Origin: a virus
DNA: 25,825 bases
Virus record (IMG/VR): IMGVR_UViG_3300003690_000118
Location: 1-25,825 of that record
Direction: 5' to 3' (one strand)
Within the stretch, counting starts at the first letter, position 1. Each line of letters starts with the position of its first letter. The position numbers and the translations under genes were made by a program. Below, piece after piece: positions 9,339 through 13,003 of the stretch. A model generated the notes under the pieces. It searched no databases, was not told the DNA's origin, and saw only the letters and a list, made by a program, of their open reading frames with translations.

Positions 9339-9367
9339 ATTATACACCTAAGATCTCCAGTATGCAA
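9339..9367 (-). promoter_or_regulatory. Minus-strand sigma70-type promoter before portal
   Basis: On the minus strand TTGCAT (9367-9362) and TATAAT (9344-9339) are separated by 17 bases; the -35 element lies within the last codons of the terminase gene. Transcription would start near 9332, leaving a ~34-base leader before the portal ATG. The hexamers are identical to those before scaffold (5722-5750). Confidence 0.65.
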
Positions 9368-10889
9368 CCCTTTTTGTTTTACGTTTTTCATCTTCCCATT
9401 CTGGATCTTCAGGATGTGTGATATGCCATGACTCTCTCATGTAATGTACGGCCATAGTAAGAGCATCTACCTGATCATCATGAGCTGCATTGGGAAACTG
9501 TAATAGTTCCTCTACGAGTTCATCCGTCCACTTCTTATATTTAGGTATCCATACTCTTCCCGATTCAATTAATGGAGAAGCAGCATATACTCTGCTGACT
9601 TTATCTCTGTCAGGTAAGTATTCTCTTACGGGTAACCCACCTCTTCTCATATCCTGTATAAGAGACTGTCCACTGGCCTTTTTTTCTATGATACATATAT
9701 CTGGTCTAAACCGACGAAAGAGTAATTGTGACATCCTACGTAATTCGGGATATTCAAACCTTCCTCGTATATTACCTAGGAGTATCAGATTGGAAACTAT
9801 ACTTTCAATTCCATATTCATCTTCATGTGGTAAGGAAAAGATGCCCCATGTCTGTATAACACTAAAATCAGCCGTGGTATTTGTGGAGAATGCCGTATCA
9901 TATGTTTGTAATATAAAATCACATGTGGGTGGGTCTTCATATTCCCACCATCTTAGCCATTTCTTCTTGATCAGCCCTCCCTCTTCTGGAGTAGGATTCT
10001 GCATATACAATGCATTCCAGTATCGTGCTCCATTTGAGGCTTTTATTTCATTCTCATCAATCTGTAGTATATGCTTTGGCTTCCATTCGGGGAAATAGGA
10101 GCTACCTACTGGTAAATCCAGTAATTCTGCTGCTTCAGCATCCAACCATGCAGGAATACGTATTACCTCCCACGGAATAACCTCATATTGACTCATATCT
10201 TCCTGTTGTTTCAGGAGCCAGCCACATAAATCATCATAATGGTAACGAGTATTAATGATAAGTATGGCTCCATTGGGCATAATACGAGTTCTTAACCCGG
10301 CAGGATACCATTCCTTTACATATCTACGTCCAGCTTCCGAATATGAGTCCTCTTCAGACATCACATCGTCCAATATGGCTATATGTGCCCCTCTTCCTGC
10401 AATCTGGCTACGGACTCCGGCTGCATAGTACGTGCCATTCTGTGTTGTCTTCCACTTTCCTGCCGCTCGTACGTCCGTTCGGAGTGAAACACCCTTAAAT
10501 ATCTCCTGAAACTGTTCAGCGTTAACAATGTCACGAACAGAACGGCCAAAATCACTAGAAAGTTGATCACTGTGAGAAACAGTAAGAATTTCATGCTCTG
10601 GATTTCTCCCTATATACCATGCTGGAAACAATTTAGAACAGAGAACAGACTTGGAACTACGTGGTGGGAGAAAGACCATTAGTCTTTTTATCTCACCAGA
10701 TTCCAATTGACTTAATTTGTTTGAAATTAGCTCAATGTGTTGTCCCATTTTCCAATCGGAAACAAGAGTAGGAGCCATTAGACGAACAAACGTGAGAAAA
10801 TCAGTTTTCGTTTCTTGGAGTACGTTTAGTCTAAGTAGACTATTCAGGTTTATAAAGGGATTTAGTATATTTTCTTGTTCTAATTCCAT
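9348..10889 (-). CDS. terL: Terminase large subunit (DNA packaging ATPase-nuclease)
   Basis: A 513-residue protein that should drive DNA into the prohead and cut the concatemer. The ATPase half has a Walker A of the form LPPRSSKS (residues 74-81), a Walker B AILDDV with Asp174 and Asp175, and a coupling-type motif INTRYH near 212-217. The nuclease half shows the three acidic sites: Asp331 in QTYDTAFS, Glu402 in IIEKKASGQS and Asp471/472 in HDDQVDALTMA. Length is typical. ATG 10889 follows AAGGAT and a T-rich leader; a minus-strand promoter lies at 10984-11012. No small terminase subunit is recognisable next to it. Confidence 0.93.
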   Translation of the reverse strand: MELEQENILNPFINLNSLLRLNVLQETKTDFLTFVRLMAPTLVSDWKMGQHIELISNKLSQLESGEIKRLMVFLPPRSSKSVLCSKLFPAWYIGRNPEHEILTVSHSDQLSSDFGRSVRDIVNAEQFQEIFKGVSLRTDVRAAGKWKTTQNGTYYAAGVRSQIAGRGAHIAILDDVMSEEDSYSEAGRRYVKEWYPAGLRTRIMPNGAILIINTRYHYDDLCGWLLKQQEDMSQYEVIPWEVIRIPAWLDAEAAELLDLPVGSSYFPEWKPKHILQIDENEIKASNGARYWNALYMQNPTPEEGGLIKKKWLRWWEYEDPPTCDFILQTYDTAFSTNTTADFSVIQTWGIFSLPHEDEYGIESIVSNLILLGNIRGRFEYPELRRMSQLLFRRFRPDICIIEKKASGQSLIQDMRRGGLPVREYLPDRDKVSRVYAASPLIESGRVWIPKYKKWTDELVEELLQFPNAAHDDQVDALTMAVHYMRESWHITHPEDPEWEDEKRKTKRVAYWRS

Positions 10890-10956: not shown

Positions 10957-10985
10957 TTGTGATATCATCATATACTATATATAAT
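10957..10985 (+). promoter_or_regulatory. Rightward promoter candidate for the early arm
   Basis: TTGTGA (10957-10962) and a perfect TATAAT (10980-10985) are separated by 17 bases. Transcription would begin near 10992 and run through the structured leader to the gene at 11457, giving a ~465-base untranslated region. Its -10 element overlaps the -10 of the oppositely directed promoter at 10984-11012. Confidence 0.55.
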
Positions 10986-11012
10986 TATACACTAAAATCT
11001 TGGAAGATCCAA
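10984..11012 (-). promoter_or_regulatory. Leftward promoter candidate for terminase operon
   Basis: On the minus strand TTGGAT (11012-11007) and TATAAT (10989-10984) are 17 bases apart, the same arrangement as the portal and scaffold promoters (TTGCAT-17-TATAAT). Transcription would start near 10977, about 88 bases before the terminase ATG. It overlaps and faces the rightward promoter, so RNA polymerase could occupy only one of them at a time. Confidence 0.6.
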
Positions 11013-11109
11013 ATTATTTTTTAAGATAGCTCGTAAATTTAAGGTAAATATGTCACACCCCCTTCTTATATATATTCTCCCTCTAGTGTATTTCTTCCCT
11101 ACCCCTCTA

Positions 11110-11456
11110 GACTGTATATGTAATACTCGATAGAGCTGTAGAAACAGATACCTTGATGATAGTACTGTGTAGTATCATCGAATACGAGAGTCTTCGGGTG
11201 ATACTCGACCGATATGCCTGGGTTTTAGCCTTACCCGAGGTGTTTGTAAGGATGAACCGGATGCATAAAACAGGGGCTGTTGATGACTCCTTCCATACAT
11301 GTTATTGTTATTTTGATACGACTTGCCCTAAGATATATTGGGACAAACAATCGTCGTCGACCTCACAAGCTCGGCACTCCTAGATTGTACGATAGTTTGT
11401 ACATAGGGCAAGCCAGCTTGTTGTAACAATAACATATATGGAAGGAGCCACTAATA
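11110..11456 (+). promoter_or_regulatory. Structured leader RNA upstream of the first rightward gene
   Basis: This 350-base stretch contains no convincing gene but many hairpins. TTGATGATA (11153-11161) pairs with TATCATCGA (11173-11181). CGAG 11185-11188 pairs with CTCG 11204-11207 around a C-UUCG-G tetraloop at 11192-11197. ACCCGAGG 11233-11240 can pair with CTTCGGGT 11192-11199, or its ACCC with GGGT 11220-11223, or CCTTAC 11229-11234 with GTAAGG 11246-11251; these helices exclude one another. A large inverted repeat follows (11284-11450) and hides the ribosome-binding site. Such alternatives are typical of attenuators and riboswitches, but it matches no class I know. Confidence 0.55.
11284..11450 (+). 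repeat. Long inverted repeat that sequesters the 11457 gene's ribosome-binding site
   Basis: Bases 11287-11310 are complementary to 11424-11447 at 23 of 24 positions; the single mismatch is C11298 against A11436. The right arm ends in GGAAGGAG (11440-11447), the Shine-Dalgarno sequence of the gene starting at 11457, and the left arm begins with its exact complement CTCCTTCC (11287-11294). Inside, ACTTGCCCTA-like and ACAAACxATCG-like segments (about 11321-11330 and 11343-11353) match their mirror partners at 11405-11412 and 11389-11402, so the whole region is one imperfect palindrome with a ~35-base loop. Confidence 0.85.
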
Positions 11457-11828
11457 ATGGCCCAAATTTATAAGAATCCGGTTCAAGCTTACATTATGCC
11501 TCGGAAACAAGCTTTGAATGTGGAGCCGCACGTCGTTGGGCAGCCGAAGATTGATACATCTGATGGTCATACACTTCTGCTCGATATGCTGAAGATGTGT
11601 GAGGCTCGTGGAATTGAGCTTAAAGCTTGGATTCCAGACCTGTTGGTCGAATTAGCAGCCGATGAACGTCCGAAGCAATGGGCTGCATCTGCTGTTAGGG
11701 AGCTTATAGAGGCAAACCCTGACAAGAATTATGGCATCGTGGTATTTGCCAGTGCTTTTGGACCGACCTTAGCTGTCTTAGCTGATAATGGTATCTCTGC
11801 TAAGACTGAGGTCGTTAGTCTGAGCTAG
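11457..11828 (+). CDS. First rightward gene, unknown 123-residue protein
   Basis: A soluble, balanced protein of 123 residues (MAQIYKNPVQAYIMPRKQAL at the start) with a predicted helical middle (LLLDMLKMCEARGIELKAWI; KQWAASAVRELIEANPD) and a hydrophobic beta-like segment YGIVVFASAFGPTLAVLAD near residue 95. I recognise no family. The gene is clearly GC-richer than its neighbours and stands alone: GGAAGGAG with 9-base spacing to ATG 11457, a structured leader that can cover that site, and a strong intrinsic terminator 12 bases after the stop. This is the layout of a separately controlled, abundantly made product, perhaps an early host-takeover protein; that is inference. Confidence 0.8.
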   Translation: MAQIYKNPVQAYIMPRKQALNVEPHVVGQPKIDTSDGHTLLLDMLKMCEARGIELKAWIPDLLVELAADERPKQWAASAVRELIEANPDKNYGIVVFASAFGPTLAVLADNGISAKTEVVSLS

Positions 11829-11840
11829 TTTGTTGCAGCA

Positions 11841-11886
11841 GGGAGGGGGATGGATGTTCCGTCCTCCTCCTAACTTCTTTTTTTTA
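11841..11886 (+). terminator. Intrinsic terminator after the 11457 gene
   Basis: GGGAGGGGGA (11841-11850) can pair with TCCTCCTCC (11862-11870) around a ~11-base loop, followed by a T-rich run CTTCTTTTTTTTATTT (11874-11889). Purine-rich left arm and pyrimidine-rich right arm are shared with the hairpins at 12173, 15810 and 24729. Confidence 0.8.
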
Positions 11887-11895
11887 TTTCGGTCT

Positions 11896-11925
11896 ATCTT
11901 CCTTCATTCGTCTCTCACGACTGTT
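11896..11925 (+). promoter_or_regulatory. Single copy of the operator-type sequence found at 13004-13028
   Basis: ATCTTCCTTCATTC followed by CTCACGACTGTT matches ATCTTCCTTATTC followed by CTCACGACTGTT at 13004-13028, apart from a one-base and a four-base insertion. It lies upstream of the gene at 11974, as the 13017 array lies upstream of the 13212 genes, so both may bind the same factor. Confidence 0.5.
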
Positions 11926-11973
11926 CTTAACCCGAAGGTTTTAGACTAAAGATCACAAACTCACGAGGGTTAT

Positions 11974-12630: not shown

Positions 12631-12936
12631 ATGGCCTCTTATGGTGATGGTCTTATCCACATTACAAATGTAGATATGTGGAAAGATAAGCTTCGAATAA
12701 CTGTACTCGATACTGTTGAGGAGTCAGAGATGTGTATCTTAATGACTCATGATAAAGCTCATGAGTTAGCGATTGATCTCATGAACTTTGCAATGGGATT
12801 AATTACAAAGGAGTTGATAAATAAAATCAATAGTCTCCCATTGGAAGATAAAATTAATAATATCTCGATATCTAATCAAAAGGATATCGAAAATGACTCT
12901 AAAATTGTATTTATCGATTCCTTTAGAAAGGGGTGA
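12631..12936 (+). CDS. Unknown 101-residue protein whose stop overlaps tRNA-Trp
   Basis: ATG 12631 is preferred over an upstream in-frame TTG because of GGAAAGG upstream. The protein has a beta-like first half (GDGLIHITNVDMWKDKLRIT), a helix DKAHELAIDLMNFAMGLITK, and a polar, Asn/Ser/Lys-rich end. No family recognised. Its stop codon TGA (12934-12936) is also bases 6-8 of the tRNA gene, so processing of the tRNA from a joint transcript would cut this mRNA at its stop. Confidence 0.65.
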   Translation: MASYGDGLIHITNVDMWKDKLRITVLDTVEESEMCILMTHDKAHELAIDLMNFAMGLITKELINKINSLPLEDKINNISISNQKDIENDSKIVFIDSFRKG

Positions 12937-13003
12937 AGTGTTAATGGCTGCACATCAGACTCCAAATCTGAGAGATAAGGTTCGATCCCTTACACCCCTG
13001 CCA
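12929..13003 (+). tRNA. tRNA-Trp (anticodon CCA)
   Basis: All four arms can be drawn over 75 bases. The acceptor stem is AGGGGTG (12929-12935) with CACCCCT, 7 perfect pairs, then G73 and an encoded CCA (13001-13003). The D stem is GTGT/GCAC with one G-U pair. The anticodon stem TCAGA/TCTGA encloses the loop CTCCAAA, so the anticodon is CCA and reads UGG. The T arm is TAAGG/CCTTA around TTCGATC. Pair A1-U72 and discriminator G73 are the known recognition features of bacterial tRNA-Trp. Base 8 is A rather than the usual U. A phage tRNA-Trp supplements the host for UGG-rich phage genes; it is not a suppressor. Confidence 0.92.

Follow-up and report, generated by a model that had tools for sequence, protein, structure and literature searches.

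A long leader inverted repeat that travels with the first rightward gene of an uncultured phage lineage and is often predicted to bury its ribosome-binding site

The intergenic region described here raises two questions: what a very long inverted repeat does across the start of a phage gene, and how its two arms stay complementary. The window, by which is meant the whole stretch of DNA that was analyzed, is a virus contig of 25,825 nt (IMG/VR record IMGVR_UViG_3300003690_000118, positions 1 to 25,825). Its leftward genes are structural and include those for the terminase (9348-10889), the capsid and a GroES-like protein, and its rightward genes are those of replication, encoding a primase-helicase, a PolA-type polymerase, an SSB-like protein and a Cas4-type exonuclease. 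By terminase, the nearest cultured phages are the pelagiphages HTVC027P and HTVC023P, at approximately 40% identity, and judged by its sequence the lineage is an uncultured one that is distantly related to the marine SAR11 phages. In HTVC027P and HTVC023P, terL lacks the divergent arrangement, and no site comparable to the leader repeat was found there. The GC skew of the window flips sign at about 11000, in the divergent intergenic region. Because gene direction flips there too, the skew alone is no proof of an origin. The features of the region are as follows.

9348-10889, minus strand: terminase large subunit gene (terL), assigned by Pfam Terminase_6C and PHROG 38; the divergent neighbour, and the probe for relatives
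10975-11058, plus strand: conserved intergenic block (TATATATAATTATACACTAAA ... GGTAAATATGTCACA), the presumed promoter region, from an alignment of 14 leaders
11143-11158, plus strand: conserved box AAACAGATACCTTGAT, directly ahead of the variable leader, from the leader alignment
approximately 11180-11960, plus strand: exchangeable cassette of leader hairpin, gene and terminator, its extent placed by the loss and regain of identity between L105 and L116
11235-11330, plus strand: 5' arm, antisense to the ribosome-binding site and gene start, from the repeat alignment and fold
11287-11310, plus strand: core 24-nt block with the Shine-Dalgarno complement, from its pairing with 11424-11447
11404-11504, plus strand: 3' arm, spanning the Shine-Dalgarno, the ATG and about 16 codons, from the repeat alignment and fold
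11440-11447, plus strand: Shine-Dalgarno GGAAGGAG, predicted to be fully paired (unpaired probability 0.00)
11457-11828, plus strand: first rightward gene, 123 aa, fast-evolving, of no known family
11841-11887, plus strand: intrinsic terminator, a hairpin and T run that ends the one-gene unit, from the sequence
12929-13000, within the early region: tRNA, the sole Rfam match

The inverted repeat of the window is real and not a product of chance. A preliminary description of this DNA reported that 23 of 24 bases pair between 11287-11310 (CTCCTTCCATACATGTTATTGTTA) and 11424-11447 (TAACAATAACATATATGGAAGGAG). This was confirmed, the sole exception being a C-A mismatch, as was the exact complement of the Shine-Dalgarno, CTCCTTCC (11287-11294), facing GGAAGGAG, which sits 9 nt ahead of the ATG at 11457. 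The further matched blocks noted at that time are also present and make the arms longer than was first given, 11235-11330 against 11404-11504 in an alignment that did not favour wobble pairs. When the entire window was scanned, this repeat scored 40 and the runner-up 19, against at most 23 in three shuffled windows; it is the window's only strong repeat. The 271-nt stretch folds at -107.8 kcal/mol with a z of -9.4, and no shuffle was equally good; the shuffle-based z values given here were obtained with 30-200 shuffles. When the leader was compared with Rfam, no family scored above its gathering score.

Relatives were collected as 160 loci through searches with the terminase and a DUF932 gene, and more were added by leader DNA patterns. 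Direct homologue searches with the first and second genes of the window gave no matches. Many contigs in the terminase search, long ones included (L013, L045, L052), break off no more than a few hundred bases upstream of terL, as though assemblies tended to fail there. The DNA upstream of the hairpin is similar across the group. Scans of the collection with words from the conserved intergenic block return this group only. Of the 14 closest leaders, 13 have GATACCTT at a distance of 239-281 nt from the terL ATG; the exception is L010, which has Ns in that stretch. The box AAANGATACCTT is the end of this similarity, and the hairpins diverge beyond it.

A scan of 1.32 Mb of related loci found 29 repeats scoring at least 27, and all of those scoring at least 40 lie at this leader, the contig L007 excepted. 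The repeat of L007, the strongest of all, was dropped as chimeric, with two different terL starts or copies inverted in one contig. A hairpin in the same place is present in eight distinct leaders of the window kind, namely those of the window, L004 (L103 is nearly the same), L105, L116, L101, L084, L171 and L107, which owing to kinship among them (L004 with L105, L084 with L171) are not eight independent cases. Several assemblies recover some of these hairpins (L101, L099, L172, L173, L175), which indicates that the leader hairpin is not an assembly artefact. Moreover, every close relative has in its leader either one strong hairpin, which defines the window kind, or several smaller ones; the latter include the further relatives L095, L098, L114, L010, L014, L108, L113 and L168. 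The leaders of all 16 close relatives fold better than their shuffles, with z from -3.5 to -14.3, compared with a mean z of -1.2 (sd 1.5) for 48 control stretches.

The leaders with several hairpins have features of their own. In L095, L098, L114, L010, L014 and L108, tandem hairpins lie approximately 300-750 nt past the terL ATG, and some carry a conserved unpaired 5-nt bulge, ACTTA, on the 5' side of a stem whose sequence changes. The hairpins with this bulge are always oriented with rightward transcription, and they are possible sites for a protein or RNase III. In L015, the stretch 301-540 nt past the terL ATG holds an array of partly palindromic units of about 20 nt (GGCTCAGGCTAGGCCTACC).

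The proposal that an anti-Shine-Dalgarno helix hides the ribosome-binding site holds as a prediction for part of the group. If the leader is transcribed from the conserved upstream region, a long-range helix is predicted to take up almost all of the Shine-Dalgarno in the window, L004, L105 and L116, but this arrangement is not conserved across the eight leaders. Specifically, the Shine-Dalgarno is fully buried in four, lies partly in an internal loop in three (L101, with an unpaired probability of 0.62; L084, with 0.43; and L171, which is arranged alike) and is outside the hairpin in one, L107, where the hairpin stops short of it. Full long-range pairing is nevertheless predicted for 4 of 7 first genes tested, as against 0.8% of the 243 other genes examined in these loci. 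On these predictions, the hairpin is the constant feature and burial of the Shine-Dalgarno a frequent consequence. The preliminary description also held that such a helix needs a trigger to open; the sequence analysis found none.

The expectation that the gene behind the leader is solitary was borne out by the terminator-like hairpin with its T run at 11841-11887, and an intrinsic terminator stands behind all eight first genes. The first protein of the window has no convincing match in Pfam, PHROGs, PADLOC or PDB sequences, and its nearest relatives are 27-31% identical. Across the eight leaders of the window kind, the first proteins share 12-55% identity, compared with an identity of 89-92% to the window's terminase for the terminases that were measured; some of these first proteins can count as relatives only tentatively, and that of L107 is shorter and probably unrelated.

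The loci L105 and L116 show the exchange. Over terL and the promoter-like region, up to a point 325 nt beyond the terL ATG, their DNA is 96% identical, and from the second gene onward identity is back at 93-96%. In between, starting just beyond the promoter box and taking in the leader and first gene, there is no match. Because the unmatched part coincides with the hairpin, the first gene and the terminator, these evidently were exchanged as one cassette, which swaps as a unit between close relatives. When 5' and 3' arms are matched, own pairs score 40-68 and foreign pairs 7-23, the exceptions among the latter being L004 with L105 (32) and L084 with L171 (45-46). The hairpins of different relatives often have no shared sequence, yet each 5' arm pairs best with the 3' arm of its own leader. 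As read from these alignments, the 5' arm of each cassette is antisense to its own leader and mostly reaches its own ribosome-binding site and gene start. Short tandem repeats were also seen at the downstream edge of the cassette, as ACTCACGAGGG...GGCTCATTA just ahead of the second gene in L116 and as AGGCATGATTGTCTTTTAT after the first-gene terminator in L101, L084 and L171.

The mismatches within the arms bear on how they stay complementary. Under a scoring that treated G-T and A-C alike, the leader hairpins of the window kind contain 14 G-U, 31 A-C and 86 transversion-type mismatches. There is no excess of G-U over A-C, contrary to the terminator control: the terminators of the same first genes contain 15 G-U and 0 A-C, and 30 terminators from all loci, chosen by pattern rather than by the hairpin scan and scored without favouring wobble, contain 29 G-U and 3 A-C. 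Additionally, a folding preference for the rightward strand is absent after correction for composition, the other strand being slightly better in 7 of the 8 leaders. Without a preference for G-U or for the rightward strand, the two arms resemble copies made from one another at the level of DNA. This suggests that single pairs are not kept as RNA pairs and that complementarity is maintained as exact copies. A role in RNA would still be compatible with these counts, because so stable a helix loses little per mismatch.

Covariation had been proposed as a check on the pairing. When it was scored position by position on MAFFT alignments, it did not rise clearly above the level of slid controls, and a hand alignment of the leaders gave no clear covariation result. 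Uncompensated changes, which the preliminary description took as grounds for refuting its proposal, were found in part: when L004 and L105 were aligned by their helices, 14 pairs switched between Watson-Crick and mismatch, and 9 were compensated. Double changes are thus seen in such an alignment, which by its design can reveal them only at places where pairing occurs in both leaders. Template switching has been described as a way in which both arms change in concert (PMC8794818).

From the anatomy and exchange that the alignments demonstrate, we infer transcription, blocking and opening of the leader as follows. Tentatively, and with a probability of roughly 0.45, the leader hairpin blocks or delays translation of the first gene until it is cut or bypassed, and its arms are kept complementary by DNA copying and joint travel. 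Transcripts from the upstream region would fold into the very stable leader hairpin, and in the window this would block ribosome entry. The gene product would then be made only after the hairpin is cut, or from a bypassing transcript started inside it. Given a stem this long and almost entirely Watson-Crick, host RNase III would be the likeliest enzyme to cut it. The arms would be copied from each other by template switching during DNA replication and would travel together, with no selection on single RNA pairs. Against cutting, one cleavage halfway along the stem would not obviously release the Shine-Dalgarno, because the outer helices would still be in place.

The main rival, though rather unlikely, places the role of the repeat in the DNA, as a cruciform or single-strand hairpin that might serve, for example, as a site of replication start, processing or cassette exchange, with burial of the Shine-Dalgarno a by-product. 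An integron-like exchange site is a conceivable variant. It would fit the Watson-Crick pairing without wobble or strand signature, as well as the position of the repeat between divergent gene blocks, at the sign change in GC skew and adjoining the cassette breakpoint. However, gene direction also explains the change in skew, a hairpin of -100 kcal/mol need not show pair-by-pair selection for wobble, and the 3' arm or the hairpin lies close to the first-gene start codon in all eight leaders; moreover, no initiator, recombinase or origin was identified. It is improbable that the repeat has no regulatory role, with inverted duplications arising repeatedly by template switching at a hypervariable spot and then drifting. 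The site is an exchange hot spot, and the types of mismatch (86 transversion-type, 31 A-C and 14 G-U) do look random. In contrast, nowhere else in 1.3 Mb of genuine sequence are there repeats so strong, every member of the window kind has one, other relatives have tandem hairpins in the same leader, several with the conserved 5-nt bulge, and a useless burden that buries a start site should be lost.

Two further readings turn on events within the leader itself. A change of promoter as in T4 gene e, in which the long transcripts made early are silent and an unstructured mRNA is made later from a promoter within the hairpin, would match the geometry of T4 e, soc, 49 and I-TevI (PMC3014915). It is very improbable here. 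No conserved promoter-like word was found between the arms, and a simple sigma-70 scan between them gave nothing above chance, although the phage's promoters may be of another kind. Attenuation by a leader peptide, in which translation of an ORF through the 5' arm opens the hairpin, is mostly refuted and was rejected as hardly credible because the ORF is not conserved. An ORF of 75 aa in the window (11156-11383) does traverse the 5' arm, but L004 and L105 have ACG in place of this ATG, and in other leaders the ORF is variable in length or stops before the arm.

Good translation of genes 0.3 and 1.2 of phage T7 needs RNase III processing. As in T7, a fast-evolving first early gene here stands behind a hairpin, and the long double-stranded stem would be a plausible substrate for RNase III. 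The T7 sites, in contrast, are short, conserved hairpins with internal loops, whereas here the stems are long, those of different relatives often have unrelated sequences, and the cleavage is a proposal. In T4, hairpins conceal the ribosome-binding site of genes e, soc, 49 and I-TevI (PMC3014915), the Shine-Dalgarno and/or AUG being held in a helix with the upstream leader of a lytic phage mRNA. Such a helix is predicted here in the window, L004, L105 and L116 and in part in L101 and L084, and is absent from L107. Unlike those of T4, the helix is far longer, with arms of about 100 nt, is located at the first rightward gene and is swapped with it; furthermore, no internal late promoter was found, and the repression is a prediction.

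The promoter-early stem-loop (PeSL) cassettes of T4-like phages, as described in the passages of PMC4503421 that cite Arbiol 2010 and Comeau 2014, are similar in that early genes are shuffled between relatives with an adjoining promoter, here presumed, and a stem-loop. Compared with that description, there is a single cassette site here, and the stem-loop is itself part of what is exchanged; it is complementary to the gene start, and its sequence is not conserved. A conserved promoter/stem-loop motif recurring at many genome sites, as that account has it for PeSL, was not found in the window, where the GATACCTT box and the strong hairpin each occur once. Lastly, the RNA hairpins attributed to template switching also show concerted multi-base Watson-Crick changes in both arms (PMC8794818). 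Those hairpins are mainly from rRNA genes and have a G-U signal, whereas here there is no G-U signal and whole cassettes are replaced in addition.

The mechanism favored here, a translational block whose arms are maintained by DNA copying, might extend further, although this extension is a long shot. DNA copying would rewrite the upstream arm as the exact antisense of each replaced or changed first-gene start, and a 5' arm, once released, could also act on a sibling in the same cell, silencing its copy of the gene if it is the same one but leaving that of a different sibling alone. If so, a hypervariable early gene would always bring its own matching lock. In phages, a first gene that is rapidly exchanged often serves host takeover or anti-defence. 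A cassette site flagged by so large a self-complementary leader may therefore help in finding genes of this type and in testing how a concealed start site is opened. It may also allow a natural test of whether selection on RNA or the copying of DNA preserves long hairpins.
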